Part shown: positions 9,508 to 30,400 of the stretch, in pieces
How positions within the stretch are numbered: position 1 is the stretch's first letter
Layout: the number at the start of each line of letters is the position of its first letter
From: Crambe crambe
Lineage: Eukaryota > Porifera > Demospongiae > Poecilosclerida > Crambeidae
Reading direction: 5' to 3'
Length of the DNA stretch: 64,000 bases
Assembly: GCA_963924555.1 (NCBI GenBank)
Contig: OZ004581.1
Span: 7,169,338-7,233,337 of the forward strand
Made by a program: the position numbers and the translations under genes
Notes under the pieces: generated by a model
Seen by the model: only the letters and a program-made list of their open reading frames with translations
Databases searched by the model: none
What the model was told of the DNA's origin: nothing

Positions 9508-9640
9508 TTTAACCGTGCTAAGCTTCTTCCCCGATCGATATTATCGGAAGTGACGTCGTGTCGGAGAGAATTGTCTTCCCGGACCGGACCCGACTCGACG
9601 TCGACCAATTGAGCTGCGCATGCGCAATTACTATCAGACT
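9508..9640 (-). promoter_or_regulatory. Probable promoter of receptor A
   Basis: The region just upstream of the ATG is unusually CpG-rich for this window. It contains a TGACGTC CRE-like site near 9551 and a perfect NRF-1-like palindrome GCGCATGCGC near 9615, followed by CAATT. A matching block (GAGTTGCGCATGCGCAATT) lies at about 47750, beyond the transposons upstream of paralogue B. No TATA box is evident. Function is inferred from position and conservation between paralogues. Confidence 0.5.
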
Positions 9641-9831
9641 AAGTTTTATTGCAGGGCACTCATAAGTAATTGCTTACATTGTAGCTAATGCTGTACGTAC
9701 TTCTGTGGTAGTCTGTGCAATATTTCCAGGGCCTTGTGATCAGTAGTAAATGGTGAAATGTTTCCCCACCAGGTAGTGCCCAATCATTGTTTATCGAGTC
9801 AAGGTGTTGTGTTAATGTTGAGCTTCCGAGC

Positions 9832-9875
9832 CGAGTCATCCCTACATAGAGAGTGCTACCGCACTCTCTGATATA
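9832..9875. repeat. Short dispersed hairpin element
   Basis: CATCCCTACATAGAGAGTGC followed by its inverse (GCACTCTCTGATA). The same or inverted module occurs near 6800, 8350-8395, 25870-25910, 37610-37645 and 37845-37875, so it is a dispersed hairpin, probably the end of a MITE family. Confidence 0.6.
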
Positions 9876-9904
9876 TAGCTATAAATATATAGTAAAGTTA
9901 AGAT

Positions 9905-11355
9905 TTGTTTACAGTGATGACTGCTGCTGTTACATCATCAAAGCATTTATTCTCACAGGCAGCATTATCATAAGCTACTCCATGTGGCACAGAACTGAAA
10001 TCAAATATTATTGTTACAGTAGCTAGAACTAGTACACCTTGAACTGAATCTGCATAACGCACCATAGATCATAGATCATATACATACATGCATGCATGAT
10101 AAGGTACTATAATTATTTGCCAAAAATAGGAGGTTATAATTGCCAAGTTCAATTAATGAGGAAGATGATGTAGCTAATATTAACCTCATTCTGCCTACAT
10201 TGTTAGAAGTTAATGAATACTTATGTACCTGACATTCCTACTGATGTCGAAACACTCACAGTTATGTCATACTGAGCTCCTACTGTGAGGTTGGTAATAA
10301 TGACATGGCTCTAAGTGACTGTTTTACTCTTTCTTTTAGGGACAAATGGACTATACTCAACAATGTAGTCAGCAAGCCCCTTCAGCTCAACCAATGTTTG
10401 AGCATCCCAAGTGACATTGATTGCAGTGGAATTAATCTTTAACACCACTACATTCCGTGGTGAAGGAGGTTCTATTGAATTAGAATTAGCTTTTGTGATC
10501 TCATAACATCAAGTACTACCTCCAAATATTATAGTCTAAATTTATGATAATAATTATTATTACATTGAAGTTTGAACATAGCATATGTGACAGCCGAGGG
10601 TAGAAGTCAAACTTTATTCACATTTTAGTCAAAGTTTACTTTTGTCATGACTGATGTTTTACAATGAAATTTTCTGCCTTTCGACTTTTTTTCTCAAAAG
10701 TAGAAAGCATGAATAAAGTTTGATTTCTACCCTCGACTATCACATACAGCTACGTATAATAGTATCGCATATGAAGTCATGGAAGTTTCATAATCACTCA
10801 TAAAGGCCAGGTATGAAATTAAAATTACATTACGTACAGCAGCTCTACAGCTACCTCCTTCTTCTGTGAAGCAATAGAGATACTGTTGTTCACCACAGCC
10901 AGCCATGTTGATAGCCTTCACCCTAATCTCATAGGCAGCTGTCAAAATGCATGCATGAAATAATAACAATTGCTGTACATGCAGAATCACTCAAGCAGCT
11001 TAATTATCTTTAATGATGTTACTTCTAGGAACAGTGGTGTATATGTGTGTCGTGCTGTTCTCAACATACCCGAAGCAGGAATCTCTAATCACTTTGATGA
11101 TGCCACTACTCTTGTGAACACAAATAGTAATTAACTTAACCAAAATCATAGCATAGCTTTTAGTTGCATTATCTAATTTAATTATTTGCAGCTCCTGGCC
11201 CAGTAAGCAACTTGATTTGCAATGAAAGTTCATCACCATCTGAACTTAGTTTCTCCTGGGAACCACTCACAGAGTTAAATGAAGAAGTGATTAGTTATCA
11301 AGTTGAAGTGAAGGAACTATGGCACAGAGATGGTACTAAAGATGTGGTATAGCTA
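9905..11355 (-). pseudogene. Decayed 3' exons of a third receptor-family gene, partly inverted
   Basis: Compared with the intact exons of receptor B, minus-strand relics occur of the cytoplasmic exon (about 9910-10000), the start of the TM exon (about 10045-10075), the second FN3 exon (about 10240-10470) and the short exon between the FN3 halves (about 10840-10935). The FN3 relic has lost the stretch before the SHVIITNL motif and carries an in-frame TAG. Next to them, on the plus strand, are a second-Ig exon end (about 10990-11130) and a first-FN3 exon start (about 11190-11355) that ends in a premature TAG. The mixed orientation shows rearrangement after duplication. The head-to-tail position directly upstream of receptor A suggests the tail of a lost tandem copy. 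Confidence 0.75.
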
Positions 11356-11384
11356 ATTACAGACTTTAACAGTCATTCATTAAT

Positions 11385-13240
11385 TTTGATTGTGGTTAAG
11401 TTATTTACTATTTGTATTCACGAGAGCCACTAGACTAGCAGTGCAATTAAAAATCCTTGCCTCTCCACAGTTATTATCAAAGGAGGGATATCGTGATATG
11501 ACAGAGATGGTAGGAGGATGGGGTGGCAGTGCTATAATTATTGATATAGCTAAATTTTTTATAATTATTTTTATTTCTATTGTATTATCATAAGCTTATG
11601 TTGCCCATGAGACTGTAGACTATGTTGTTGCTACTGCCTTTAAGGAATGGCAAATTATCAGTAGGTCTCAGTGTCACATTCAAAATGTATTCCGTTGAAT
11701 CACATTGGACAGAATCATAAGTTTATTTGAAATGGTAAGGATGTACGTAGCCAACTGTGGATTGCTATCATCTGAACAGGTGCCTACCGCAGTGACATCA
11801 GTATCAACACTGGGATCTAGATGTACAATACCACTCAGAGTGAAGTTTGTCCCATTGTAAGGAATGGGGTGGTTGACAATTAATATCGTTGGGGATGGAA
11901 CTACAAAAGTGAAAATATATTAAATATTGCATGTGGGGGGATGAGCTGGAGGGTTTAAGCTCCGTCAGTTGCCGCCACGTAAGAGGGTTGCTGCCACCAG
12001 GATTCTGTCTATGGCCCCAGCTAGTTTTACCCAGCACAGGATCAGGATAGATAACTGTTAAATTATTATTCACTTGAGTAAGACAAAAATCAACAGACAA
12101 AAATGAGGTGGATACTTTTATACCCTTCACCTCGTCAAACTGAACATAGTAACACACACACCATGGAAGGTTCTGGAATCTGAGTTTGTCAACACATACA
12201 ACATATTCACACACACATAAGACATTGATGAGGTGACACATAATAATGATTAGAACATGCGGGAACAAGGATTAGCACATACACGAGATGATGCAGAATT
12301 ACACGTACATGTTAGCATGATGGTGATTACAGGATTACATACATACATTATGTACATACACTCATTACATATGGTGATACAAAATTATACACATACACAT
12401 GTACATTAGAATTCCCCTACATGGCACTGCCATGGGTCACCTCACGGGAGGCCGTCCCTCCACACTCCATAACTATGTAATAATCAAAATTAGCTAGTAA
12501 TGACCAACAAACAAAATTAGTGATAAGACCATGTACAGAATATAATCTCCTACAACTTACTTTGGACAGTGATATATTCTCAGTATTACTACTTGTGAGG
12601 TTAGTTATGCCAGCTTCTGGGATGTTAAGTGTAGCTTGACAAGTGTATGCACCTCGATGTGAAGTGTGGAGAGGGTGAAAATTTAATGCCCAGTAAGAAC
12701 TGTTTAAATGAATTCGATTCAGAGGTATCTGGAATGTCCTCAATAAAGATCCATTTCAAGACTGGTGAAGTTACCATTTAATATTCTTCTGCTATGGTGG
12801 AACACAAAAGAGTGTGATTTTCTCCTGCTATGGGCAATAGCTATGGAACAGCTGAGTGAATTGGTTACTTCAGGAGCTGGTAATTCTGGGAGGAGTGAAT
12901 AATAGATAGAAATGCAATACTGATTTGAAGCACTTACAGAGAATGGAAAGCACAGTATCATTCATTACTGGATCACTGGCAGTGACATTTGGGAGTGCAG
13001 AATAAACCAACGACTGAACACTCATAGAAGCCCGTATCATTCATGATCAATGGTGAAAAAATTAAGGAAATTTGATAGTTTCAATCCTGTCAGTAGCAAA
13101 TTAATGTCATGGGCCTGGTGAAGTTTATTTCAATCTCAAAATCAGTATCCACACCAGGGTGTGATCACACAAGTGAGAGAGAAGGAGGTACGACTTTCCA
13201 GTATCACAACTGCTTCAGGTGCTGGCACTGCATGTACAGA
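11385..13240 (-). pseudogene. Scattered Ig-exon fragments of the receptor family
   Basis: Minus-strand pieces resemble Ig exons of receptor B. About 11420-11530 matches the start of its second Ig exon. About 11745-11905 resembles the start of its first Ig exon (VPSPTILIV, then LDPSVDTDV). About 12555-12745 encodes an Ig C-terminal half with the YTC motif and the NIPEAGI signature, followed by an AGTAAGT donor-like end. Weaker Ig-like text lies at about 12940-13240. I cannot assemble one open transcript. The Ig signatures are clear, but exon limits are approximate, and some pieces could be live exons of an unfinished gene model. Confidence 0.5.
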
Positions 13241-14340
13241 AACAGAACTGCTGAAAAAAGAATCATCATTCATCTAGTTGTTCATCATTATCCATCAAAC
13301 AACTTATTTCAGAAATAGTTCACTCAAATGCTATAATTCTTATACCATATGTAACTGCTCAAAATTGACTCACTATAATCCTTTACCTTTAACTCGACAT
13401 GTCCAATATAACGTGGCAGACCCTTGACTTCTATATGGAGAAGTACAGATAGGGGAAGGATAGAAATTCCTGTCTTCCAACTTTGACTATATATCATAGC
13501 TAGTCTACCTAGAAAACTCTGCCGTAGCTGTCTGAAACAAGATACTTTTTCTGATTATTGATTTTTTTGGACACCTGGTTTAATGATGTATAAAATCTAT
13601 ATGAATTAACAGCCATGACTAGCTAAAAGTCAGGATTCTGAGTCAGTTTTAATGGGCTATCTTTTGATACCTAAATAGTAGGTGCTGCCAGAAAAAGTGT
13701 CCGGTAATTGATCCTTCTGATAATTGATTGATTACTTATTCTACCTTCTTGAATATGCTTGAATATCTTTCAATGCACGTTTACTGTCTTTTATAGAATA
13801 AAGCATCTTTATGCTGATTTTCCGGATGATACTGTTTGTATTCTCGTGAAATTAGCATCATCGCATCGGCAATGGCCTTCCTGTGCATGCGCATTGGCGA
13901 CTGTTCGCAAGCTGCTTACTATATAATTACCGTATCGTGACGGTATTATTGCCAGTGCAGCCTAGGCCTGTAACCAAGAGAATCAAATGGCTTGGCCTGT
14001 TGCCATTCAAGATGTCCCGCATAAGCTAGGTGAGCTAAGCTGAATGAGATAGAGGGAGGGGAGAGCTGATTTTAATAGTTAGATTCACCACTATTCTCTT
14101 TTCCGGGCATGCAAGCCCGGAATCTAATAAACAAAACTACTACTGGACTGACCTTTCACCTTAAATTTGACCACAAAATTATTCTTTGTGACATCATAGC
14201 CACTTAAAATACTGGAAGTTAACCAAGTTACACTAAAAGTGGTAGTCTTGTACCTGGTACATGCATGATTATAGAAAGTGCATATTGAAGATAAATGTCT
14301 ACACTAAGGGGTTACTAACTAGCAATAATTACTTCAGCTA
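13241..14340. other. Intergenic, no gene seen
   Basis: AT-rich sequence without a convincing exon. It contains a GTGCATGCGCA NRF-1-like word near 13884, a small palindrome around CCGTATCGTGACGG (about 13931) and a hairpin CCGGGCATGCAAGCCCGG near 14104. It ends at the TA target site of the pogo-type transposon. Confidence 0.5.
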
Positions 14341-17300
14341 GCGTAAGCAATCTACTATCGACTGGGTACTACTATCGACCATTTCCAGATCTATTATCGA
14401 CCAACAAAGTATCCGAATATCAGTTGAAGTGTACGGGAGAATTAACGGAATGTTGGACATGTGATAATTTGTAGTTGTTACTGCTGTCTTTATTCTGCTC
14501 TTTTTTTGTGCAATCAGTGCTTATTCAAGGTAGTTGTAGTTGAATTTAGCTATATTAAAGATTCATTTTGTAGATTTTAGTATTTGATGTTATTTTTTTG
14601 TCATTACAGGCGCATGCCACGATACTCCAAAAAGAAGAAGAAAGGCGGCTTTAAGCCAACAAACCTACCTAGTTCAAGGCCAGAAGAGTCATCTAGTCTA
14701 AGTCGAAGGCCAGCAAAGCGTATGCAATGGACGAGAATGCAGATGGAAGCTGCTGTCAGAGCTGTTGAATCGGGTGTTTCCGTCTCCATAAATAGGGCAG
14801 CTAGAGACCATGGAGTACCTCCATCTACTCTAAAAGATAGGTTATCTGGACGAGTAGTGGATGGTAATAAGCCTGGCCGTTCTTCCTATCTCACTGAAGA
14901 TGAAGAGATGGAGCTAGAATCATATCTTATTAAGTCAAGCCAACTTGGTTATGGGAAGACCAGAAGCCAAGTTAAATCCATGGTCGAGAAAGTTGCTGTT
15001 GATAAAGGGCTCCTGCGTAAGTCTCGAATCAGTGATGGTTGGTTTAAAAAATTTCGTTTACGTCACCCCAAGCTCTCTCTTCGCTCTGGAGATGCAACTG
15101 GACATGTTCGAATGAGGGCCACAAGTCAAGAAAATTTGACACACTATTTTAATCTTCTGAAAGAAATCTTTGAGGAATTTGACTTTAAAGATAGTCCTGA
15201 AAGGATATACAATATGGACGAAAGCGGTATACCATTGGATCCGAAGCCACCAAAAGTTCTGGCAGCAAAAGGACAAAAGAAGGTTCGCTATAGGTGTGCT
15301 GGGATCAAGGGACAAATTACTGTCCTTGGCTGCTGCAGTGGGACAGGACAGGCGCTTCCACCATTTATTATCTTTGATGCCAAGCAGCTGAACTATGAGT
15401 GGACTCGTGGTGAAGTACCTGGCAGTCGGTATGGCTTGAGCGACACAGGATGGACAAACAAAGGCCTGTTTCATGGATGGCTTGTTGAACATTTTCTCTT
15501 GCACGCTGTTCCAGGACGTCCATTGCTACTCTTAGTTGATGGTCATAGTTCTCACTATGATCCTGAGACCATCAAGTTTGCGAAAGACCACGAAATCATT
15601 ATTTTCTGCCTCCCGCCTCATACTACACATGAGGCGCAGCCCCTTGATGTAAGTTTCTTTGGGCCTCTGAAGATCAACTGGGGTCATGTATGTCATGAAT
15701 ATTACCAGGCTGCTCCAGGTCGAATTGTTACCAAATACAACTTTTGTGAGTTGTTCGCAAAGGCCTGGATGAAGACCTGTACACCTGAAACAATTTGTGC
15801 TGGGTTTCGTCGTGCAGGCATCATTCCATTTGATCCTGGGAGTGTCAAGAAACGGTTTCCTCATTGTGATGATGCTGAGGGTATGGACATACGGTGTGAC
15901 AAGAACAACTGCACAAATTCAAAGGTGAATTCCACCACCGAACCTGGTGCTGGCAGCAAGGACTCTGCCAGTGAAAGTCCAAAGGTCACTCCAGTTTTTT
16001 CCAATGAAGAAGAAACTTTGTTTTCTCGACGTTTTGAAGAAGGATATGATCTCTATGACGATCACTATGAGCAGTGGCTATCTATTATGCATCCTGAAGC
16101 ACTAACTGTTGCTGATCCACTTTGCTCCATCGAATCTACTCCAACTGGACTAGCAGAGTCTCACCTTGGTGGCTCTTCCTCTGAAACTCCACCCCAAAGC
16201 TCCTCCTCTTCCTCATCACAAACCTCAAGTAGTTCAACTTCTGATGCCAGTTCCAATTCAACTTCTAGTACCTCAAGTTCATCACCATTGGCTGAAGATA
16301 CTCCACCTGAATTTGAGTCACCACCTCTATTCTCATCACCTGAAACTAGTGTGCCAGAAACTCCACCTATGAATTCAGCCGATTTAGTTAGTCCATCAAA
16401 TTCACAGGGACGTTCACCATTGGCACCCATTTCCCCAAATGTGTCTGCATTGCATCTTGGGTCTCCTTTAAGCAAATATCTTATTCCCATTCCAAAAGAC
16501 TCCAAGAGTACTAGAAAGACAGGGCGTGCCACAGTTCTTACTAGCAAAGAATGTTTGGACATGTTAGAAGAGAAGAAAAGGAAGAAAGAGAAAGAAGCAG
16601 AAGAGAAAGAAGAGCGTATGAGGGTACGCAAGAGACGTAAACTGGAGAGGGAGGAGCTACAGAAGAAGAAAAAGGAGGAACGTCTTGAGCGCCAGCAGAA
16701 GGCGATAGCTAACAAGAAAAGGCAGCCCCAAAGAAGAGGTCGTTCCAAGAGCAAAGGGAATAATTCTGGTGATCCTGCTAATAATAGTGCCAGTACCTCT
16801 AGTTGTGGTAACCCTGGTGACCCTGGTCATGACAATGTTACCACCATTGACCTCCCAGTACAAGGAACTGCTTCTGAGCCTTGCCTTGAAACACCCGACA
16901 GTGACCAAGAGGAGGCTTATGAATGTGTATTTTGCTATGGGAGCTTCTGTGCTGATGGTGAAGAGTGGGTGATGTGCGCATGTGATCGTTGGGTGCACGA
17001 GAGGTGTATGGAGGATGTTTCTATCGATGAAAATGGTGCAGAGCGATTTTGTCCTTTTTGTTTGAACTGAACTATTTTATTATAAAGCTATATTATTAAT
17101 TAAAATTAATGGCGAGGGTTGGTGCAGGTTATCATCCCAACAGATGTATATAGCTAGGTGGATCTCATTCCACCAGATGTAGTGGATATAATGGAACTCG
17201 ATCATTCCAGCAGATGTAGTGGATATATTAATTCTTTAATTTTGACTATTTTTTTGGCTGTATGTGTGTTAGATAATATAAAATGAAATAGTATTGTCCA

Positions 17301-17603
17301 GTTTTCTGTAGTGGTACACATCCAGAGATATGATCGATTTCTGTTAAAGTGGTCGATAATTTATCATACAAATTTGTATGGTCGGACGATAGTAGGTATC
17401 GGTCGTCGATAATAAAATTTTGAGTATAGCATGCAATATTGCCTATACAAAGTTCATTCTATTTAAACGAATGTCAAATTTGCTATATCTGTAAAGACGA
17501 GGTCATGACCTTTCTGACAGTGCAAGTTGCAGTCCTCTGCGACCTTCAGGGACAAAGATATGATAAGTCAAATATGTAGTGGTCGATAGTAGGCAGCTTA
17601 CGC
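14341..17603 (+). mobile_element. Complete pogo/Tigger-type DNA transposon
   Basis: The element starts GCGTAAGCAATCTACTATCG. Its right end, reverse-complemented, starts GCGTAAGCTGCCTACTATCG, so 19 of the first 22 positions match. Both ends are flanked by TA (14339-14340 and 17604-17605), the usual target duplication of the Tc1/mariner-pogo superfamily. Extra copies of TATCGACC-type words occur just inside both ends (near 14366, 14394, 17341, 17386) and may be subterminal transposase binding sites. The only gene inside is the intact transposase at 14584-17070. Intact ends plus intact ORF indicate recent, possibly ongoing, activity. Confidence 0.9.
14584..17070 (+). CDS. Pogo/Tigger-family transposase with C-terminal PHD-like zinc finger
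   Basis: Single-exon ORF; a start at 14614 (MPRYSKKK) is as plausible as 14584. Domains in order: Psq-type helix-turn-helix (about residues 48-90, SINRAARDHGVPPSTLKDRL), CENP-B-type DNA-binding region (about 100-185), and the DDE nuclease with D212 (NMDESG), D319 (VDGHSSH) and D355 (QPLDVSFFGPLK), a DD35D-type triad. A long Ser/Pro-rich linker follows, then a Lys/Glu/Arg coiled coil with nuclear-localisation-like runs (about 660-720). The C-terminus is a PHD-like finger with CVFC, CAC, HERC and CPFC pairs. It is expected to bind and cut the inverted repeats of its own element in the nucleus. All catalytic residues are present, so it appears functional. A domesticated host gene is less likely because the ends and TA duplication are intact. 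Confidence 0.92.
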   Translation: MMLFFCHYRRMPRYSKKKKKGGFKPTNLPSSRPEESSSLSRRPAKRMQWTRMQMEAAVRAVESGVSVSINRAARDHGVPPSTLKDRLSGRVVDGNKPGRSSYLTEDEEMELESYLIKSSQLGYGKTRSQVKSMVEKVAVDKGLLRKSRISDGWFKKFRLRHPKLSLRSGDATGHVRMRATSQENLTHYFNLLKEIFEEFDFKDSPERIYNMDESGIPLDPKPPKVLAAKGQKKVRYRCAGIKGQITVLGCCSGTGQALPPFIIFDAKQLNYEWTRGEVPGSRYGLSDTGWTNKGLFHGWLVEHFLLHAVPGRPLLLLVDGHSSHYDPETIKFAKDHEIIIFCLPPHTTHEAQPLDVSFFGPLKINWGHVCHEYYQAAPGRIVTKYNFCELFAKAWMKTCTPETICAGFRRAGIIPFDPGSVKKRFPHCDDAEGMDIRCDKNNCTNSKVNSTTEPGAGSKDSASESPKVTPVFSNEEETLFSRRFEEGYDLYDDHYEQWLSIMHPEALTVADPLCSIESTPTGLAESHLGGSSSETPPQSSSSSSSQTSSSSTSDASSNSTSSTSSSSPLAEDTPPEFESPPLFSSPETSVPETPPMNSADLVSPSNSQGRSPLAPISPNVSALHLGSPLSKYLIPIPKDSKSTRKTGRATVLTSKECLDMLEEKKRKKEKEAEEKEERMRVRKRRKLEREELQKKKKEERLERQQKAIANKKRQPQRRGRSKSKGNNSGDPANNSASTSSCGNPGDPGHDNVTTIDLPVQGTASEPCLETPDSDQEEAYECVFCYGSFCADGEEWVMCACDRWVHERCMEDVSIDENGAERFCPFCLN

Positions 17604-18956
17604 TACACTATAGTCTACCACTAGAAGTGTGCACACCTCTGGATGATACTTCCCTCCCTCCCCAGTAGTCCAGTCACCAGTGGCTGATGTATAGGGGAAC
17701 TGCACAACTTCAAATGAATGATCTTACTAAGTTGTGCGTGCTCAAAGTCAATATTCAGACAACATGCATTGGTCCATAGAATCTACTAGATCAAGATATA
17801 TTTGCTGCTTATAAGAGCTAGCCAAATTTGCTACTAGTTGGACGGGGTCAGGACTTCCTAGGGACACAACTCCCTTCATCCATGGCCATAGGATAGGCTA
17901 CATTATCAGAATTGGTCCCTTTCGAATATGCTAAATCTACCCCTGATCTGGTCCTTACTATTTTTTGTGCAAGACAACAAGTGTCACTCAGAGGTATGAA
18001 AGATGATGCACAAATTACTAGTGTAGCTACCAGTAATTACTACAATTACTGCTTACTAGATAGAGATTAGCTAGTAGTAATTAGTTTCCCACAGCTTAGT
18101 GCTTTGATGTAAACTTCTATAGTCTCACATGTACCAGGGTCTGACTTCTAGAGCGTGTTAAACAAGTATATAGTTACCAGTAATAATTACTGCCCAGTAA
18201 TTTTAAGTGGCAATAATGTACAAAGGTCAGTCCAGTAGTCCATTCCAGTAATCCAGTCCAGTAGTCCACTCCAGTGAATTCAGACACCCAAACAAAAATA
18301 TTTGCAGGTGACTCATGATTTTAGTGTATATAATATCACCCCATAATTATAGCTACTACTAAAGACCCAATCATGCCAGAGTTTTAGTAGCTATGTCCAT
18401 CATAGCTAGCCACTACTATTAACAGCATAAAAGACACTCATTACACTAGTCAATTACTTAAGTAGCTATAAGAGCTATAAGCAAATGCAGATTAGTGTAA
18501 GTTGGGGGGGGGGGGGGGGGGGGCTAGAGCCCCCCACTTTCCGCCGCCTATGATGGCTGTGCATATATAACCGTAACAAGTCCACGAGAATTGTGCAATC
18601 AAAAGTAGTAAAGTAGTGCTAAATAAACTCCCACTGCAAGTACTACGCTGACTTTGATGCATCCTTTATGAATAATTTGTGAGTATATAAGTCCATTTTG
18701 TGTATTGAGCAGTGCAGCTCCCTAAAGAGACCACCTCTCTATTAAGACCACTCCACCATGTATTATTCAGCTCCACCTCTCCACTCCACCATCATGTCCC
18801 AACAGCACTTATTCAGCTATTTTGACTCTCTAAAGAGACCACCTGGCCACTCCACCATCCTATTCAGCTATTTTAACTCCCTAAAAAGACCTCCTCTCTA
18901 TTAAGGCCACTCCACCATGTCCCAACAGCACTAATAGCATAACTCATGATATGCAG
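17604..18956. other. Non-coding stretch upstream of the Roc-COR exon
   Basis: No convincing exon. It contains repeated CCAGTAGTCCA words (about 18228-18270), a 21-base G run near 18505 joined to GAGCCCCCCACTTTCCGCCG (an end also seen near 40130), and degenerate repeats of a GAGACCACCTCTCTATTAAG type at 18718-18930. Related ACCACT words recur near 48510-48650. These are probably transposon debris within or before the intron preceding 18957. Confidence 0.5.
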
Positions 18957-21127
18957 GTGCTGTATCTCAAGATGATGCACAACACAGGGAAGTTTATTAC
19001 AAAGCCATCAAAGAAAAAATCGCCGTGAAAATAAAGATGGCTAGGCTTGTCCATGTTGGCCTCCCTCGGTCAGGAAAGTCATCCACGATCAAACGGCTGA
19101 TGGGAGACATTATGAATCTCCTGGAACTCAAAAGAAAAATTTCAGCATCCAGCTCAGAGGCAACTGAACAAGCAAAAGTCATCACTGCACGGAGCTTGTG
19201 CTCAGATTTGGCAGCAATCTCAGTCAATCCTGAGGATCCAAATTCATTCCAGTGGCTCAAACTAAAGGGCTTTGTGGAGGAAGACAGCTTCCTCACTCAT
19301 CTATTGGAAGCTGTTCAAAAAGATGCAGCAGATAAAACCTCATTATCATCATCAGAGCCCACAACAAAACCACATGCCTCTGATTCTTTGGCGGATAAAA
19401 AAGCTCACACACTTGTAAAAAGGAAGACAATTCAAAAATTGTTAGCCCTCCCTCAAGATGCCAGGGAAAGAGAGGTGAACGACATCAAGAGTCTGTTGAA
19501 AGATCTTGATCATCTCATTCTTTTGATCAATACCGACACCGGTGGCAAGCCTGAGTTCTACGATATGTTTTCTTCCCTAATCATGGGACCGTCCCTCTAC
19601 CTCCTTTATCATCGACTGAATGACCCGTTGGATAAGCCTTTCAAATTATCTTTCACTGATAGTGATGGTGAGTCCACACTTCAAGAAGAAGAGGAAGAGT
19701 CGATGATTACTGTCGAGGAAAGTCTGTTTCAAGTCCTTGCAAGCATTGCCAGCTTCAGTGATCCCAGTATCAGAGATACGTACAGTGTTTCTTCACAGGA
19801 TTCCACTGAGAGCATGTGCAAGAAATTTCCAATTCATTCCAGAGCACTCTTTGTGGGGACACACTTGGATCAGTTGAAGACCAAGAAGGAGTTATTGGAG
19901 AAGCAGAAATTCTTGAAGGAACGAGTCGAGAATATGAGCCTTTATAAGGATGGTACTCTACTATTTCCCGCAAGAAATGAACCTATTTTGGCAGTGGATA
20001 ACTTCAAAGGTCTCAATAGTGAGAAAAAGAATATCAAGAATATCTTGGCAAAGATAGTCAACCATCACTTCCGCGAGATCACCATCCCAGCAGCCTGGCT
20101 GATATTAAGTCTCTATATGCGCAAGGACATCAACAGCGCATCAAGAAGGCGTATAATGCTTCTGGAAGATTGCAAAGAGCAAGCAGGCAAACTTGGAATC
20201 GATCCCACGGAGTTAAAAGAAGCTTTATGGTTCTTACATCACTGCATGGGGCTGATCTTCCATTATCCTGGAGTGAAAGATGTTGAAGACAAAATCTTCT
20301 GTGATGTGCAAGTCATCTATGATGGCATCACACAGCTGATTGCACACACTTTCAGTGACCCTACCAGAATCGGTCCTGGTATCATAGAGAAGTTTAAAGA
20401 AAGAGGGATGTTTTCTGATGAAGATCTCCAATGTGCCATGCAGCCGTGCAGTGATGAGTCCAATGAACTTCCACTGGATCAGTTAGTGAAGCTTCTCGAA
20501 CACCTCAAGATTTTGATCGTTATCTCCTCCAAATCCACTGGAAAGAAAACCTACTTCATGCCTTGTGCCCTGAAGAGTGCGACAGCTGCAGAATTGAAGA
20601 CCGAATTGAACTCCATCGTAACCTCCAAGAACAATCCAGCTCCTTTGATACTGCAATACGACTGTGGTTACATGCCTGTAGGCATATTTTCCCACATGAT
20701 CGCTGATTTTACCTTCCAGTGGGAATTGACCGAAGATGAAAAAATCTGTAAGAACATGATCAAGTTCTCCTACAAGACAAACCAAGTCGTTTTGATCTCA
20801 CGTCCTTCGTACATTGCAATTGCACTTTCACGAGGTCCTCACTGCAGTATCCCAAATAAAGAAATATGTTCTACCATGCGTGAGAGGATTGAGTCGTCTC
20901 TGGATAACCTTGCTCCGCACATGGATTACAAGTCAAACTCGCTGCAGTACAAGTTCGGATTTGAGTGCATACACAACTCCAGTCATGCGGTGAAGGAACA
21001 CCTCGCTCTGCGGAAAAGCGATGAGGATTTCTTGAAGTGTCAGGTCGATCAGCGAATCCTTTATTTTACCGAGTCTCAGAGGGTGTGGTTTCAGGAGGTT
21101 GAAGTCAGAGTTGATTCTTTGTCACAG
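18957..21127 (+). CDS. Roc-COR-like NTPase exon of the caspase gene
   Basis: The exon encodes about 720 residues. A P-loop GLPRSGKSS lies at 19058-19084. A switch/Walker-B-like DTGGKPEFYDM starts at 19535, and a G4-like THLD motif (FVGTHLDQL) near 19852-19878. The C-terminal half has winged-helix/COR-like text (LHHCMGLIFHYP near 20237-20272; GYMPVGIFSHMI near 20666-20701). This order of motifs is that of Roc-COR (Roco) proteins such as DAPK1, MFHAS1 and LRRK. There are no leucine-rich repeats or kinase in the exon. It ends in CAG and a GTAATT donor, phase 0. An in-frame run from 18959 to the first ATG (19037) favours an internal exon over a start here. Confidence 0.75.
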
Positions 21128-24100
21128 GTAATTATAAGTTGTGTAGCTGTGAAAATGGGGTCCTTATTAAGCTCTAGGTCTAACCAGGACACTTTGTTAT
21201 AAAATAACCTCTAAAGAAGACACTAGAGCCCCTGAAATGGGGACACCTCTTTAATCAGGATGCTTTTTTCCGCTACTATGTTTCCAATAAGGAGCAAGAA
21301 AAGCTTAACGTACATATCTCTAATAAAAAGCAGTTTTTTAAAGCGAATAAAGAAGCTTACTCAAAAAATTACTACAGTAACCATAGATCACAAGAGTTGG
21401 CACAGTCTCGTCCATAAAGATAATTATCATGACCTCTTTCATATAAAAACAGGCTGAATCTGAGACCGATTTACCTACTGTGGAAGTTTTATCAGGTACG
21501 TAGGTGTCAGTGCAAGGTTATCCATCAATTATCCCAAAGCCATTTATGCGTTACGTACATACATACACATACATAAATACATACATACATACATACATAC
21601 ATACATACATACATACATACATACATACATACATACATACATACGTACATACATATGTACATACGTACATACATACATACATACATATATACATACATAC
21701 ATACATACATACAGAGATGAAGGAATTCTCCAAGGATTTGAGCCCAGATGAGCTCTCAAAGTGGTTGCTGTCGAAACATGTGCCAAAGGGTGATTGTGAC
21801 AAGATCAAAGGTACGTATAAGTCATATTAATAGCACAGTGATGCTGTTCTCTGCTTTGCAGCTGTAATATTTCTGACTAGTTCCCCCCCCCCCTTCCCTT
21901 TGGTTTTGATTTGTTGTCTTTTACAAAGGTGCCGGTATTTCTGGTCAACTCTTCATGAGTTTAACTGAGGTAAAATTGAAAGCGAGATACAAGATTGATT
22001 TGACACTAGTAGGGGTGGATACTATCATCACACTGCAAGAAGACTTGAGGCCAAAATCAGGTGCGTAAAATGCTGCCTGTGCAAATTGGCCATGGGTTAT
22101 CAGTTACTACTAGTTAAGATGTACTACAACACCAACCACCACCTTAGAAAGCCCCTGGGACGTGTATGAATTACCCTCAGGCAGATAATAGTTCTAAAAA
22201 TAGCACATAGTATGAATTCTATGCCACCATTTCTTTCCACACAGCTGATGTTGAAACCTCTCTAATTACTTCACAGGTAATTCGTTAATGGTAGCTAATT
22301 GAATTGGTATGTTATGAATTCCTTTGAAACAGCAGGTTGAGTCTGATGCTTCAGCAGTACCACCAGATGAGCCTGGTACATGCAGACAGAATAACTATAA
22401 TACCACTATTATGGCAAGAAAATTATTTTATAGAGGGAAAATTTTGAGTGGATAGTTTGTGGTTTTTGGGCAAAAGATAATAATGACCATTAGCTACTTG
22501 AGTATAGCACAAAACAATTCCTAATTCTTTCTATTTTAGGTACAACATAATTTTGTTTTACAAACCCTTTTTATTATGCACTACATAAGTGAAAGAGTTC
22601 TCTGAAAACTTGAGTGCAGCTGAACTAGCTCTGTGGCTGCAGTCCAAACATGTGCCTAAGGACGAATGTTACATCATCAGAGGTCAGTTTGTAGTGGGTG
22701 CACTTTTAAGCTTTTAAAGGTCAACTTTTTTGGTTTTCCCATTCCAGATTCAGGGATTTCTGGTCGCCTCTTCATGAGTCTAACAGAGGAAAAATTAGAG
22801 AGATATGAAATTGATGACATCAGCCCAATTGGACTGGACACCATTTTGACCCTGCAGGAAGAAATGAAGGAAAAGAAAAAAGCAGGTATGAAAAAGTGGC
22901 TTGAAGTAATCGTTACAACTATTATGAAATCTATTATCACCCAATAGCTAACTCTGATTGTGCAAGTCCTCCAGCTACAGCAGGTACCAATTGAGTACTG
23001 TATAATAGAGCTAGCCTCGTCCCCAGGCCCTCCAATTTATTATGAAAGTCAAATTAAAAGGAGGGCCAGGGGTCAAGGCTATAATAGAGGGTGATAATAA
23101 TTGTAAGGTCATGAACTCTGAACCCTGAAATCTAACTTAGTTATTGTATTACATTTCTGCTCAGACTGTATAATCATAGTCCACACTGTGACACTTCTTT
23201 AGTCCTTCTTCATCAATTCTGTAGGGGAAAACATTAAACGTATGACAATTAGTTGTAAAAAAACAGTTTATAATGATTTTGGTGGTTATCTCAACACCTA
23301 TATCTTACATGAATATTAATCACTGATGTGTTAGTAGTAATTATACAGTTAGGAGAACAGTTGTAGTGTCAAACTGATGATTTTTCCCCCTTGTTTTTGT
23401 TTACATTTCTGCTCAAACCGTATAATCATAGTGCACACTGTGACACTTCTTTAGTCCTTCTTCATCACTTTTGTAGGGGAAAACATTAAACGTATGGCAA
23501 TTGTAGAAAAATTTGTAATGATTTTGGTGGTTATTTCAACACCTATTATTATTTAATCACTGATGTGTTAGTAGTACGTAATTATCGTTCTTCCTACGGT
23601 CAGGAGAACAATTATAGTGTCAAACTGGTGATTTTCCCCTTGTTTTTGTTTACATTTCTGTTCAAACCCTATAATCATAGTCCACACTGTGACATTTCTT
23701 TAGTCCTTCTTCATCAATTCTGTAAGGGAAAACATTAAACGTATGGCAATTAGGTGTAGAAAAACAGTTTGTAATGATTTTGGTGGTTATCCCAACACCT
23801 GTTACATGAATATTAATCACTGATGTACGTGTTAGTAGTAATTATCGTTCAGGAGAACAATGGCCCCTTGTTTTTGTTTACATTTCTGCTCAGACTGTAT
23901 AATCATAGTGCACACTTTGACACTTCTTCAGCCCTTCAATTTTGTATAGGGGAAAACATTAAACATATGGCAATTAGATTTTGGTGGTTATCTCAACACC
24001 TATATCTTACATGAATATTAATCACTGATGCACGTGTTAGTAGTAATTATACAGTCAGGAGAACAGTTGTAGTGTCAAACTGATGTTTACATTTCTGCTC

Positions 24101-25365
24101 AAATCATATAATCATAGTGCATACTGTGATACTGTCTTCTTTAGTCCTTCTTCATCACTTTTGTAGGGGAAAACATTAGACGTATGGCAATTAGGTGTAG
24201 AAAAACAGTTTATAATGATTTTGGTGGTTATCTCAACACCTATTATTACTTAATCACTGATGTGTTAGTTCTTCCTACGGTCAGGAGAACAATTGTAGTG
24301 TCAAACTGGTGATTTCTTTGTTTATATTTCTGCAGACCGCATAGAGCAATTGACTCTGTAATTGGAGGGGCTTACCAAGAGTGTATTCTTTCTCTTTGAA
24401 GTCTTATATTTTGTGTTTCTCCAGGTAAAAAGGGTAGGCCATTGCAGCTGAGTGGTAAAGAGCCTAATGTTGACAAGAGAGTGGATTACTACGAGGCTTG
24501 TGACCGAGGTTCCTTCGTTCCAACACTCAAGCTCCATGACAATGATGACGAACTCACCAAAATGGATCCAGAACCCATCAACCAGCACAAGTATAAGGAA
24601 GGATACTACCCTATGACATCCAATAAACATGGTGTAGCATGGATCATCAATAACAAGGTATTCGAGAAACTTGAGAACGAAAATTCACCTTCTACACGGC
24701 ACGGAACCGATCGAGATGAAGATAATCTTGTCAAAACTTTGCTTTTTCTGGGCTATCGTGTCAAGATATACCGTAATCTCAAAAGGAAAGAAACCATTGA
24801 GTTGTTCTCTCATATCGATGAGCTTTTGTTGGAGAGCAATAAGAAAGCCAAGACTAGAGTTGCAAATGACTCGTTTATCTGTTGCATACTCTCCCATGGG
24901 AAAGAAGGCAGGATTATTTGTTCAGATAGCAAGACAGTCGAGATACGGTTCATAGAAGAGATGACTGGAGACAGTGAGCTGCTGTTAGGCAAGCCAAAAA
25001 TATTCTTCATCCAAGCTTGCCAAGGTGGTAGGATAGGTGACCTCCGAGTAGAAGCAGATGCAAGTGCAGCACCTTGTGCACATACGACAGGACGCACACA
25101 CTTCTACATGTGCTATGCCACCGTTGGTGGGAACAAGTCTTATCGAGATCGCTACAAGGGGTCGTGGTTCATAACCGAAGTTTGCAGAGTGCTGTGCGAA
25201 AAAGCAACATGTACAAGTCTCCATGCCGACTTTCAGTTGCTTATCAATCAAGGTCTGGCCAATGATTACGTCTACACGGAGGAAGGCTTTGCTGGGAAGG
25301 AGTACGTGCAGACTCCAACGTGCTCCAATCAGCTCCAGAAACATGTGCACTTCTTCAACTACTAG
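18957..25365 (+). CDS. Roc-COR-like GTPase / SAM / SAM / caspase multidomain protein (5' end not found)
   Basis: Ten exons join in frame: 18957-21127, 21453-21495, 21715-21810, 21929-22060, 22245-22276, 22336-22375, 22590-22682, 22748-22885, 22948-22983, 24425-25365, together about 1240 codons. Most junctions are phase 1 and all have GT/AG ends. The order is P-loop GTPase with COR-like region, first SAM, Ser/Pro/acid-rich linkers, second SAM, caspase. Because 18957 follows an acceptor and needs one base from upstream, at least one 5' exon is missing; it may lie beyond the pogo element. By analogy with Roco proteins and apical caspases, nucleotide binding plus SAM-mediated oligomerisation could activate the protease. 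Alternatively, two genes with a cryptic boundary cannot be excluded without transcripts. Confidence 0.8.
21546..21712. repeat. (CATA)n microsatellite ending at a splice acceptor
   Basis: Some forty near-perfect ACAT/CATA units lie directly before the first SAM exon. The acceptor ACATACAG at 21707-21714 is made from the last repeat unit, so the intron lacks a normal pyrimidine tract. Met-Tyr-Val-Cys-like reading frames here are repeat artefacts. Confidence 0.95.
21715..22060 (+). CDS. First SAM domain, two exons (21715-21810, 21929-22060)
   Basis: The exon pair encodes a SAM-like fold: LSPDELSKWLLSKHVPKGDC, then GISGQLFMSLTEVKL and a final helix DTIITLQEDL. The tryptophan, the glycine-rich turn before the central helix and the LTE motif are typical of sterile alpha motif domains. 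The phase-1 intron splits the domain after the IKG turn, exactly where the second SAM is split. It likely provides self-association next to the caspase. A death-fold domain is a less good match. Confidence 0.75.
22590..22885 (+). CDS. Second SAM domain, two exons (22590-22682, 22748-22885)
   Basis: This closely resembles the first SAM: FSENLSAAELALWLQSKHV, then SGISGRLFMSLTEEKLERYE and DTILTLQEEM. Same intron position and phase as the first. The two are therefore a tandem duplication of an exon pair, with the linker exons 22245-22276 and 22336-22375 between them. A short exon at 22948-22983 links to the caspase. Confidence 0.75.
23130..24345. repeat. Tandem repeat array, about 210-250 bp units, in the caspase-gene intron
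   Basis: Units begin with TACATTTCTGCTCA-like text at about 23150, 23402, 23650, 23878 and 24087, with a partial unit near 24320. Each contains ATAATCATAGT, GACACTTCTTTAGTCCTTCT, GGGGAAAACATTAAACGTAT and GATTTTGGTGGTTAT in the same order. Small deletions explain the varying length. The whole array lies in the intron before the caspase exon. Confidence 0.9.
24425..25365 (+). CDS. Caspase catalytic exon, apparently active
   Basis: One exon holds the whole p20/p10 region. The catalytic histidine is in SHGKEG (codon 24895-24897) and the catalytic cysteine in QACQGG (codon 25018-25020). The residues that give P1-aspartate specificity have counterparts: the arginine of RHGTDRDEDNL, the glutamine of QACQG, and the arginine of KSYRDRYKGSWF. 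The linker contains VEADASAAP, a possible self-cleavage site between large and small subunits. The small-subunit signature CYATVGG and GSWFITEVCRVL is intact. It is a cysteine protease expected to cut after aspartate. No CARD or DED is seen; SAM domains take the usual prodomain place. Confidence 0.92.
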
Positions 25366-26029: not shown

Positions 26030-26745
26030 TTTATGAAACTAAATCTTCACCAGTAGTTTTTACAGGCTTTGATGGTGTTTGTGTAATTCCAGGACTCTTT
26101 TGCTTGGGGATTTTTTTAGGGTTGCTAGGTTTTCCTCTTACAATACATGTCCTACGAAACTCTTTAAAACGATTCACTAGTGAAGTAACAATGGCACCCT
26201 GATAAATATTGATCAAATTAATAACAATTAGGGTGTACATAATAATCATAAGGAGTTCCTGCCGGAGAAGACATGAATGGATATTTAGATATCACAGGTC
26301 TTGCAACATTAACATAATCATCCTTGGTAGGATAGCATTTTATGCACGAGCATAGATGAAACAATAGCGGATGACATCTTCTTTTTTTTTTACCACTAAA
26401 ATAATGCATCTGCTCGAAAATGCTTAGGCAACAAATAAGAAAGGAAGTTTGTCATAATGTCGTCCTCTTCCAAATTTATCCTTGAACTTTCTGATACAAT
26501 GCTAGAGAGTCCTAAAAGAATAAAATGAAATTGAGCTTGTAGCTAGCTATGAAACCAACAGAAGTCGAGTTAAATAGATTTAAGCAGTGATAAGCTACTG
26601 TATTTTCCCCTACCTTTACTGTAGGAAGAACTACTGCCTTCAATTTCACCTTCTTTGGAAGTATATAGGTGGCATCTAGCTCTACAAACTCTTCCCAATC
26701 CTCATCAAATAAGGTAACTTGAGAATTGACATTAAACTCTTTATG
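26030..26745 (-). pseudogene. Fragment of an unrecognised gene (beta-grasp-like start plus conserved C-terminal block)
   Basis: Minus-strand exon-like pieces: about 26745-26614 encodes LFDEDWEEFVELDATYI and ends at AAG/GTAGGG. About 26515-26396 encodes a Glu/Ser-rich stretch ending in a stop (FRADALF). About 26340-26250 encodes CYPTKDDYVNVARPVISKYP. About 26187-26035 encodes AIVTSLVNRFKEFRRTC and a Lys/Pro-rich tail. The YPT...Y...A..I...YPF followed by ..SL..RFK.FRR arrangement recalls multicopy invertebrate proteins that carry SAM domains elsewhere, but I cannot name the family. The fragment is cut upstream by a hairpin MITE at 26748, and no initiator exon is visible. Confidence 0.45.
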
Positions 26746-26747
26746 GA

Positions 26748-26850
26748 TTTAGACACCCTCAGGCCCTTAGTAGCACCCTCACTTCACTCGGGATGCTACA
26801 GCCTCGGGCCTTCGGGTGTCTATATAATTGGTCTCGTTGCCTAACTTATA
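26748..26850. mobile_element. GC-rich hairpin MITE
   Basis: It starts TTTAGACACCCTCAGGCCC and ends GTCTCGTTGCCTAAC, with an inner palindrome around CACCCTCACTTCACTCGGG. The same family is present in decayed form at 29165-29545 and in three well-preserved copies within 56108-58503. Confidence 0.7.
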
Positions 26851-27132
26851 TAAGGTAGCTAATCATTGTTTTCAAAAAAAACAACAACAACAACAACAAA
26901 AAAACAAACAAACAAAAAAAACTGGGGTGAGTTTAAGTAGTATTCCTCCCTATAATCATCTTGTGTAATTATAGGCATAAGTAGCTACGTATAAGAATAA
27001 GAATTATACATATGAAAAAAAAAACACACACTAAAAAGTAGCTTATAATCAGTAAAAATCAAAGTCATACAATCAATTTTCTATATCACGACTAATCACA
27101 GCTAATAAAAATGTAGTTAATAAGAATTTGTT

Positions 27133-27467
27133 TTACAGTGATGACTGCTGCTGCTCTGGCATTCCATCATCAAAGTGTTCATTCTCATAGGCAGCATTAT
27201 CATAAGATGCTCCTGGTGGCACTGAACTGAAATATTCCAACAGTCCGTGAATTGAAAATTAGGCAACTAGTTATTGTACGTAGTACCTGGTTGATTCCTG
27301 CTTGGACTTATCTCTTCTCACAGTAACAGCAATAACAGGAATGGCTACCACTATTGCAATAAGGATGACTAATGCCAGTGTACTACCAAAGATGGCGGCT
27401 ACTGTGTTGACATCAGCAACTGAAGGAGGAGTTGTCATCACATCCCTAATTACACCTTGAACTGAAT
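27133..27467 (-). CDS. Transmembrane and cytoplasmic exons of receptor B (27467-27287, 27226-27133)
   Basis: The TM exon begins DSVQGVIRDV and contains the helix TLALVILIAIVVAIPVIAV followed by a basic stop-transfer (RRDKSKQ). The last exon encodes SVPPGASYDNAAYENEHFDD and ends PEQQQSSL-stop (TAA at 27133-27135). YDN and YEN fit the pYxN consensus for Grb2-type SH2 domains, so phosphotyrosine signalling is possible; this is inference. Copies at 51083 and 62856 keep the frame around Ala-Ala-Tyr-Glu but lack both YxN motifs. Confidence 0.85.
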
Positions 27468-30400
27468 CTGCATAAATCACCATAAAGTTACTATAGCTAC
27501 GTACCTACCTATTATGTATGTGCATGCAGATGTTGAAAAAAATTGAATAATAATAGCACTTCATTGAATTGATAATCGAGGTACGTACTTGTCCCTAATC
27601 ATTTGCAATCTACAGTACAACATATTGTTCAAATTGTTAGTCTTGTCATCAAAGACTCAATTTTGTGGGTACTACAGTTACCTTTTTGGGGTTCTGTGGG
27701 TGGGTGCTTGTGTGGATATTAATTTTTAGCTATTTTGGAGGTCCAATAATGATAAACAAACAAATTAAACTGGAGGCTGGGGAAAATTAATTCCGTATAA
27801 TTGCCATAAATTGTAACAATAAATTCAGTATTTACTCATCATACCTATAATGGTTAGCAGCTTACCTGACATTCCTACAGATGTTATAACACTCACAGTG
27901 ATGTCATACTGAGCTCCTAGTGTGAGGTTGGTAATAATGACATGGCTCTCTGTCCAAGGAACAGTGACCATTTGTCTCCTTTCAGAGATAGCTGGACTAT
28001 ACTCAACAATGTAGTCAGCAAGCCCCTTCAACTCAACCAATGTTTGCTTGTCCCAAGTGACATTGAGTGCAGTGGAATTAATCTTAAACACCACTACATT
28101 CCGTGGTGAAGGAGGTTCTATTGAATATAGGGAAGAATTTCAAAACATCAAGTAGCATACCTTCAATTGTAAAATTGTTTTCAGCTAGAAAGTTTGAACA
28201 TCATGTACAGATTAAAGCTGTGTCTATAATGGCACACTTTTTCAAAAATTTAAACCATTTTTAGAGCTCAACGTAAGAAATTGATGGCAGGATGTATCCG
28301 AGTATAATAATAATACATGAAATGATATAGCTACATACTTCCTTCCTCAGTGAAGCAATAGAGATACTGTTGTTCACCACAGCCAGCCAAGTTGGTAGCC
28401 TTCACCCTGATCTCATAAGGAACCATACCAGCTGTGAAAGTGCATGCATGGAATAATGATAATCATGAATATATTATTATTAAGAGAATCACTCACTCAG
28501 TCCTTCCCTGAGAGATATTTCTCTCATTTTGGTATTAAAGTCTGTAATATCAACAAACACCACATCTTTAGTGCCATCTCTCTGCTGTAGTTCCTTCACT
28601 TCAACTTGATAACTAATCACTTCTTCCCTTAACTCTGTGGGTGATTCCCAGGAGAAACTAAGTTCAGATGATGATGAACTTTCATTGCAAATCAAGTTGT
28701 TTACTGGACCAGGGGCTGCAAATAATTAAGTAAACAAAAGTTTTGATTGTGGTTAAGTTACTTACTATTTGTGTTTATGAGAATAGTGGCATCATCAAAG
28801 TGATCAAAGATTCCTGCTTCTGGTATATTGAGAACAGCACGACACACATATGCACCACTGTTCCTAGAAGTAATATCATTAAAGATAAGTTGTTTAGTCC
28901 GAGGATTGACCACTGGATTGTTGCTTCCGCCAGCAGGTACTTCTTGTCCGTCAGGATCAATCCATGTAATGTTGGAGTGAGAGAAGATATTCTCTACAGT
29001 ACTAGCAGTGCAATTGAAAATCCTTGCCTCTCCACAGTTATTATCAAAGTAGGGATATCGTAATATGACAGAGATGGTAGGAGGATAGGGTGGCAATGCT
29101 GTAAGCATGTACATAAGTAGAACTGTATACTTATTACTCTCTGAGAACAATAACTCTATTATAAGATATAATTAATACGTAGACAACAAGACTGAGGGAT
29201 CTATGGTATAGAAACCTGAGGGCCCTGGGCTGTGGCAGCCCAAGTGGAGCGAGGGTACTACTAGGGGCTTTGTGAAATTGAGCAATTTGATTGAGGACTC
29301 TTGAATCACTTAGTGCCCTCTTCTTAGTGTCCTCACTCTGAGGGAATAGGCTGTTTATTACCATTGCTTGGAAATGGTACATTGCTATGGCTATGTTCTA
29401 AATTATTAGTTAGATACCTCGACTAAACCCTCGGGCACCTAGTACCAACCTCACTCTGCTTGAGCTGCAACAGCTGGGGGCCCCTCAAGTTTCTATGTTG
29501 GTCAAGGTGTCTAACTTGTTAACATAGTAATAGCAATGTATTGTTTCCAAGCAGTGGCAATAAACAGCCTAGGCCTTCAGAGTGAAGGCACTAAGTGATT
29601 CAAGAGCTCTCAAAGTAACCAATCAAATTACTCAACTTCACATAGCTAGTTCTAACTATACCACTTAACTTATTGACAGAATGATCTATTCAAAAAATAA
29701 TAATTAAATGGTATTATTTATACACAAAATATACAGCTTGTAGTAATTAAGTTTTAGCATCAATTACTGTACACCATTTCTATCCATTATAATATTATAT
29801 GTAAGCTTATGTTGCATATACTGCTATAGCTCACATTGGACAATGATCAAAACAGTCTCTTCACCTAAATCACTAGCAGCTGTAGAATTGAATCTATCAG
29901 ACTGCGGAATAATGCCAGCTCTACAAGTAAAGTTGGTACTATCCACAGTGCTTAATGGGTACACAGTGAGAGTGCTGGTGAATACCGACTGAGACTCTGA
30001 GAGAGGAGATATAAGAGCACGACTGGTGCCATTAAACAGTTGACTAGCTCCTCTTAGCCATGACAAAGAGACATTCACATCACTAGTTAGGCTAGGATCG
30101 ATGTTCACTGAGCAAGTTAGTGTGAGTGGAGTTGTAGTTCCAGCATATAAAATGTCCATTGGAGCAGTGATGGAGACAGAGGGAGTAGGAACTGTATTTA
30201 AGAGTGAAAAAGTTGTTATATAAGAATATGTATGTGCAGGTACGTATGACAGATTATATGACTGCAGGACAGATATGACTATCACATCTACTTACAACTC
30301 ACGTTTTGCAGTTGGCTGTGAGAATGGTAGTTCTAAAGTGGAGCAGTTAACAGTACATAGAACCAGTGTGAAGATCACTTCATCACTGATCAGCACATAG

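Follow-up and report, generated by a model that had tools for sequence, protein, structure and literature searches.

A 64,000-nucleotide (nt) stretch of the genome of the demosponge Crambe crambe (contig OZ004581.1, positions 7,169,338 to 7,233,337, forward strand; hereafter the window, whose numbering is used unless a contig is named) carries a gene that very probably encodes a Roc-COR-like GTPase, a SAM domain, a second SAM domain and a caspase within one chain. We read the predicted product of this copy, designated W, with a probability of about 0.7, as a single-chain, GTPase-gated, SAM-clustered caspase of the initiator type, presumably cytosolic. Between 18957 and 25365, ten exons with GT...AG introns and compatible phases form a single frame of 1239 codons, in which the GTPase region is followed by the two SAM domains and then by the caspase, with a stop codon at 25365. 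The named motifs, the two SAM exon pairs, the caspase residues and the phase-compatible splicing that a first-pass annotation had described from the sequence are all present in this ten-exon open frame.

The genome searched (143,139,886 bases in 119 contigs; the published C. crambe assembly odCraCram1.1 is given as 143,197,480 bases in 124, PMC12166358) contains three further complete copies, B, D1 and D2, each with all parts on one strand and with the same domain order, exon splice positions and phases. Frames are uninterrupted in all four (1239, 1244, 1247 and 1233 amino acids (aa)) and exon lengths differ by multiples of 3 only, so that the arrangement noted in the first-pass annotation goes beyond chance. 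In D1 the donor of linker exon 2 has been lost and read-through into exon 3 keeps the frame, the summed length modulo 3 being in agreement, as predicted for a translated junction. Chance splice sites are ruled out by the exons and phases kept in the paralogues, haplotype duplication by the distinct places of the four copies on two chromosome-scale contigs of one assembly, and bacterial origin or contamination by the introns and by the location of the sequence within a sponge chromosome.

Purifying selection acts on all five domain segments of the four copies. Over the six copy pairs, the ratio of nonsynonymous to synonymous divergence (dN/dS) is 0.17-0.32 for Roc, 0.18-0.29 for COR, 0.27-0.34 for SAM1, 0.17-0.54 for SAM2 and 0.23-0.26 for the caspase. 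One-sided Fisher tests for dN<dS, in which the pairs are not independent, gave p<=3.1e-10 for the Roc-COR exon and p<=1.4e-4 for the caspase exon in all six pairs, and p<=0.0018 in five pairs and 0.035 in the sixth for SAM1 and SAM2 together. There are few changes, and no clear constraint, in the 26 residues that precede the large exon's first Met (dN/dS 0.24-1.59) and in the short linkers (0.35-1.56 or undefined).

Domains and gene structure

In a Pfam scan of the whole W chain, from which HMMER's filters removed most matches above ~0.1, Peptidase_C14 is matched at 1e-33 and COR-A at 2.7e-4, under its cut-off, and there is no SAM and no Roc match. The COR assignment has its main basis in the family rather than in W alone. 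An alignment of the W large exon with 32 of its 113 homologue matches gives COR-A in all 33 sequences and Roc in eight (Pfam, E<=0.01), and the G1 P-loop, DxxG-type G3 and T/N-x-x-D-type G4 motif classes of Roco GTPases have conserved counterparts in it (Table 1). When the profile of these 33 sequences was compared with solved structures, EngA GTPases came first (E 6.8e-4 and 7.7e-4), followed by 4wnr (E 7.7e-4) and LRRK2 Roc chains (E 0.001-0.006). The 4wnr entry, named 'Leucine-rich-repeat protein', aligns over profile positions 345-424 at the same sequence E value and is, we assume, a Roco protein. On these grounds the large exon appears to be a divergent Roc-COR sequence and is predicted to be a GTPase. 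In known Roco proteins Roc-COR forms a nucleotide-dependent switch and dimer. PADLOC gave no match for the Roc-COR exon or the caspase; a related database protein, P0041, hit protease models through its trypsin part.

Two exons encode each of the SAM-like domains; as both exon pairs are symmetric phase 1-1 modules, exon shuffling is suggested as their origin. Neither SAM1 nor SAM2 of W has a Pfam SAM match when searched individually, and a phmmer search of W SAM1 against solved structures gave no match. Their relatives are more informative. A profile of nine such segments scores 37.2 (93.6%) against a profile of 21 SAM_1-positive segments from the same genome; none of 100 column-shuffled controls exceeded 21.0, and the reversed control scored 10.8. 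A hidden Markov model of the 21 segments scores all nine at 7.8-17.9 bits, a level of 7.8 being reached by two of 2700 shuffled sequences. One relative, assembled from two exons at C1 0.5528 Mb, scores 27.7 bits with Pfam SAM_2 and so clears the cut-off of 20.5, and SAM2 of B falls under that cut-off at 18.1 bits. The two SAM domains that the first-pass annotation had proposed are accordingly weak in W itself and firm through these relatives. Further SAM relatives occur at C1 0.511-0.518 Mb and elsewhere in the genome. Some are unsplit, within short frames of ~90 aa (C3:2468314, C13:223430, C13:279237 and C16:4562592); three of these four frames, when compared, were near-identical at dispersed places and are perhaps mobile or retrocopied sequence.

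The caspase domain matches solved caspases with a best E of 8.7e-26. Aligned with caspase-3, it has the R of TRHGTD, the Q of QAC and the R of SYRD at the positions of the Arg, Gln and Arg that we take to be the P1-Asp contacts of caspases, and these three are kept in all four complete copies (as TRYGTD in D1). Asp residues in the linker between the large and small subunits (GDLRV[E/Q]AD) are also kept in all four. With both catalytic pair and P1-Asp contacts present, the domain looks active and is predicted to be a protease. No death-fold prodomain (CARD, DED or PYD) was found by the Pfam scan of the 1239 aa W chain.

The coding start is probably 13987 rather than 18957, where the first-pass annotation had begun the gene. 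The start at 13987 matches B inside a 57-nt conserved block; the W and B first exons agree in the 5′-flank and first eight codons only, and the remainder of the exon diverges. In 143 Mb, a 24-nt pattern built from these two exons is matched exactly nowhere else and, with two mismatches allowed, occurs at two further places (reversed control, 0). Strong paralogue homology of the large exon begins at 18930 (B) or 18952 (D1, D2), that is, at the acceptor; upstream of it B matches W only weakly (67% at 18518-18715) and then again at the first exon. With this exon, which adds only ~14 residues, the W gene probably extends from 13987 to 25365, with 11 exons encoding a chain of ~1254 aa as predicted from the gene model. 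Intron 1 of W holds an inserted transposase open reading frame that lies outside the protein; its counterpart in B is only ~0.7 kb. The linker exons between the two SAM modules change in length by multiples of 3 in the three complete paralogues.

Table 1. Features of the W gene and location of its complete paralogues
Feature	Position	Strand	Basis or remarks
Probable first coding exon	13987..14029	+	MAWPVAIQDVPHKL + first base of Gly codon; donor GTGAGC, phase 1, joins 18957
pogo/Tigger-like transposase open reading frame	14581..17070	+	intact, 829 aa stop to stop; HTH_psq, DDE_1, weak C-terminal PHD/RING; in intron 1
Large exon, Roc-COR-like GTPase (predicted), 723 codons	18957..21127	+	exon joining, paralogues, family profile
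G1/P-loop GLPRSGKSS	19058..19084	+	G34, P36, R37, G39 and K40 each kept in at least 90% of 33 sequences
G3 motif DTGG	19535..19546	+	D193, G195 and G196 invariant in 33 sequences
G4-like motif THLD	19859..19870	+	T301 and D304 invariant in 33 sequences
COR-A region	20093..20566	+	Pfam COR-A 1.2e-4 for the exon alone, under cut-off
Exon 2, linker	21453..21495	+	B and D2 retain it; D1 has it joined in frame to exon 3
(TACA)n array	21552..21713	+	41 copies; abuts acceptor of first SAM exon
SAM1	21715..22060	+	exons 21715-21810 and 21929-22060, phase 1-1 module
Linker exons	22245..22375	+	22245-22276 and 22336-22375; present in B, D1, D2 and A
SAM2	22590..22885	+	exons 22590-22682 and 22748-22885, phase 1-1 module
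Linker exon, 36 nt	22948..22983	+	present in B, D1, D2 and A
Caspase exon, through stop codon	24425..25365	+	exon joining, domain match
Peptidase_C14 domain	24631..25344	+	Pfam 1e-33; own-genome match E 2.1e-33
Catalytic His in SHG (predicted)	24892..24900	+	aligned with caspase-3/-6
Catalytic Cys in QACQG (predicted)	25012..25026	+	aligned with caspase-3/-6; QACQG in all four complete copies
Copy B	C1 ~544.5-550.2 kb	-	complete paralogue
Copy D1	C14 ~5139.2-5144.9 kb	-	complete paralogue
Copy D2	C14 ~5146.7-5152.7 kb	-	complete paralogue

The last intron contains a 249-bp tandem repeat (23140-23861; 2.9 copies by TRF, with further matches) that was probably expanded in W, since in copies A (described below) and B only one stretch matches it. 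Downstream of the gene there are Ig/fn3 exons on the minus strand (26512-30291), with an apparent second partial copy, by eye, at ~9400-11500.

Proposed activation and alternative readings

From this anatomy, a stimulus would alter Roc-COR, either in its nucleotide state or in its dimerisation, and this change would cluster the paired SAM domains both within a chain and between chains. Clustering would bring the caspase domains together to dimerise and cleave themselves at conserved Asp residues of the large/small subunit linker, and cell death or a response of the inflammatory type might then follow. In this scheme SAM would fill the role taken elsewhere by CARD, DED or PYD. The anatomy is what the sequence provides, each step being extrapolated from it, and we put the scheme as a whole at about even odds.

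Several observations weigh against this interpretation. A fifth copy, A (C1, ~0.523-0.526 Mb), consists of half of SAM1, SAM2 and a caspase with QTCQG, and the 8 kb upstream contain no Roc-COR exon of the W family, so that a caspase exon without a nearby GTPase exists; ~14.5 kb upstream there are only weak, broken Roc-COR-like pieces. A possible further member on C1, not counted as a copy, is split: its Roc-COR frame (0.572-0.574 Mb) is open but ~40 residues short, its SAM and its caspase (59% for the caspase) come 17-19 kb further on, and a separate Death-domain frame (0.5594 Mb) lies in between. Among at least 233 Roc-COR and 44 caspase loci in the genome, the only pairs with this order and a shared strand within 6 kb are the four of W, B, D1 and D2. 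Pfam Roc is unmatched in W, and EngA-type GTPases score level with LRRK2 Roc and 4wnr in the comparison with solved structures. The Pfam scan of the W chain (18957-25365) detected no LRR, WD40, TPR or other recognition domain. First exons of D1 and D2 were looked for and not found, the SAM1 acceptor of W is a bare (TACA)n array, and its SAM2 acceptor is shifted relative to that of B, D1 and D2. The fusion is, moreover, shown in only one species; the database proteins P0001 (99.3% identity to D1) and P0115 (97.4% to D2), which share a contig of 2,741,742 bases in another data set, look as though they come from that same species. Copy A, the split member and SAM pieces make C1 511000-574200 a cluster of related pieces.

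The SAM domains might instead recruit the chain to a SAM-bearing partner, a membrane or an RNA scaffold, with the caspase, executioner-like, being activated by another protease. The additional SAM relatives on C1 and elsewhere would fit such recruitment, as would the solved structures nearest to the W caspase, those of caspase-6/-3/-7 (among the best 60 of 151 matches). A tandem SAM plus a long N-terminal region is, however, an initiator layout, and where proteins in the best 120 of 482 database matches to the caspase bear a name, this is most often caspase-8; we regard recruitment as unlikely. It is rather improbable that this is one gene governed chiefly by alternative splicing, with the full chain being one isoform among several. 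The symmetric 1-1 exon pairs would allow the SAM modules to be skipped, and retention of the intron after the large exon, which has a stop 2-3 codons past the donor in three copies, would give a Roc-COR-only decoy.

That same in-frame stop, present in B, D1 and D2, also makes a Roc-COR-only form conceivable under an arrangement of two neighbouring genes, in which a Roc-COR gene ends past 21127 (in a retained intron, for example at the stop at 21202) and a SAM-SAM-caspase gene has its own start. The structure of copy A is in keeping with this. The complete copies, however, all retain the large-exon donor, the small linker exon (joined to its neighbour in D1) and the phase, the D1 read-through stays in frame, and at each of four places, on two chromosome-scale contigs, the pair has remained side by side. 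In W a Met directly precedes SAM1; in B, D1 and D2 the exons from the end of the Roc-COR exon to SAM1 contain none, so no separate start is evident for the SAM-caspase part, though an unseen extra exon could supply one. Two genes are therefore quite improbable. That W is a splicing-impaired relic of a recently duplicated, decaying immune-type gene is the least probable reading, for despite the (TACA)n at one acceptor, the changed acceptor at another and the transposon in intron 1, the 1239-codon frame is intact and dN/dS between W and B is 0.17-0.32 per domain. The (TACA)n array is nevertheless a possible splicing liability of W, and length variation there could change splicing.

Comparison with known systems

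We retain the interpretation of W as a GTPase-gated, initiator-type caspase, and it can be set beside several kinds of protein. Animal Roco proteins have kinase or adaptor outputs rather than a protease. The initiator caspases, caspase-8 with DED and the CARD caspases, share with W the caspase fold, the His/Cys pair, QACxG, the P1-Asp contacts and a long N-terminal interaction region; their prodomain has a death fold, whereas W has SAM-SAM and, in the same chain, a GTPase. LRRK1/2, DAPK1, MFHAS1 and Trichoplax Roco proteins are like W in having a Roc-COR core and in fusions to death-type domains, and the account in PMC11378527 mentions no SAM-caspase among them, whereas W ends in SAM-SAM-caspase. 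The first-pass annotation had treated Roco proteins and apical caspases as separate families in well-studied animals; since Roco proteins bearing CARD or death domains have been described from Trichoplax (PMC11378527), an immune-type Roco fusion in an animal is not new in kind.

Bacterial AP-GTPase-COR proteins are described with C-terminal caspase, trypsin, TIR and other effectors (PMC8195603). As in W, these AP-GTPase (Roco) conflict proteins join a Roc-COR-type GTPase and a C-terminal effector, caspase included, in one chain, and several paralogues per genome have differing C-termini, as here (PMC8195603). They carry N-terminal LRRs, in contrast to W, for which the Pfam scan gives no LRR, and the description in PMC8195603 does not mention SAM linkers, in contrast to the SAM-SAM of W. 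The single Roc-COR-like/SAM/SAM/caspase gene of the first-pass annotation, and its likeness in logic to bacterial systems, are supported; the designation of the protein as a sensor is not, as the Pfam scan of the chain finds no recognition domain and the first exon contributes so few residues. Amphioxus 'shortcut' proteins (TNFR-caspase, LRR-caspase and death-caspase) likewise connect an upstream module to a caspase in a single invertebrate chain, and the text of PMC2575513 describes for them TIR-SAM only, with no GTPase and no SAM-caspase.

Related Roc-COR cores with other effectors are found in P0041 (Roc-COR with an HtrA-like trypsin and PDZ) and P0069 (Roc-COR with Death). A search of the database for SAM-SAM-caspase regions in proteins of ~690-2195 aa gave six matches among 7999 scored candidates and no fusion like W; Peptidase_C14 is present in all six, accompanied by DED in five, of which one has PF14709 and PF00035 as well. 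No published Roc-COR-SAM-caspase or SAM-caspase protein was found in a literature search whose scope was articles outside supplementary architecture lists (for example Amphimedon, PMC8195603). We class W with Roco-type GTPases, its output being a C14A caspase. Roc-COR-caspase proteins are known from bacteria; our searches revealed no other single animal chain with SAM in the prodomain place.

The Roc-COR repertoire and its significance

Two homology searches combined identified at least 233 distinct Roc-COR loci in the genome, a locus being a cluster within 3 kb, fragments and pseudogenes included; as scoring covered 150 of 339 candidates in one search and 143 of 309 in the other, this is a lower bound. 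In the COR-A search 149 of the 150 listed matches pass Pfam's cut-off. The 44 caspase loci (46 matches, fragments included) comprise four that lie behind a Roc-COR exon in the W-type order. A Death match (150 of 965 Death-domain candidates were scored) lies within 7 kb downstream on the same strand for 11 of the 150 listed COR-A matches, and upstream for none; shifted positions gave ~1 (at most 4 in 200 trials). Many Roc-COR loci are single open frames of ~700-800 aa in same-strand arrays (C1 8.1-9.4 Mb, C3 7.5-7.8 Mb, C5 5.8-6.3 Mb, C6 8.4-8.7 Mb, C8, and C11 7.1-7.3 Mb). Downstream of a 58% Roc-COR relative on C8 there is a weak Death-like piece (L066; E 0.007, under cut-off). A Roc-COR and trypsin form was sought in the C. 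crambe genome and rejected: Trypsin_2 has three matches, none near a listed Roc-COR locus, and P0041 is for this reason probably from elsewhere. The Roc-COR expansion looks like one of an immune type. Brown algae have 9-47 annotated Roco genes, called more than in other organisms reported to date (PMC11378527); those are genes, and the count of at least 233 is of loci, a different measure.

Tentatively, W and its paralogues could be adaptor-free, GTPase-gated animal caspases that correspond in metazoans to the Roco-caspase defence proteins of bacteria, with SAM clustering in place of nucleation by a death fold. They would then be one output arm of a large, receptor-like Roc-COR repertoire that swaps C-terminal effectors (Death, SAM-SAM-caspase and, elsewhere, an HtrA-like protease). 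Animal caspase activation is described as proceeding via adaptor assembly by death-fold domains; a single chain would couple the switch to the death enzyme without adaptor proteins. SAM domains are said, with reference to earlier work, to be unable to supersaturate, and a dearth of SAM polymers in innate immune signalling is noted (PMC13012725). A SAM-bearing caspase under a GTPase switch makes this rule testable: might a nucleation barrier become dispensable once the chain carries its own switch? The finding points to an expanded sponge Roc-COR repertoire, and the fusion would tie animal cell death closer to bacterial Roco-effector systems.

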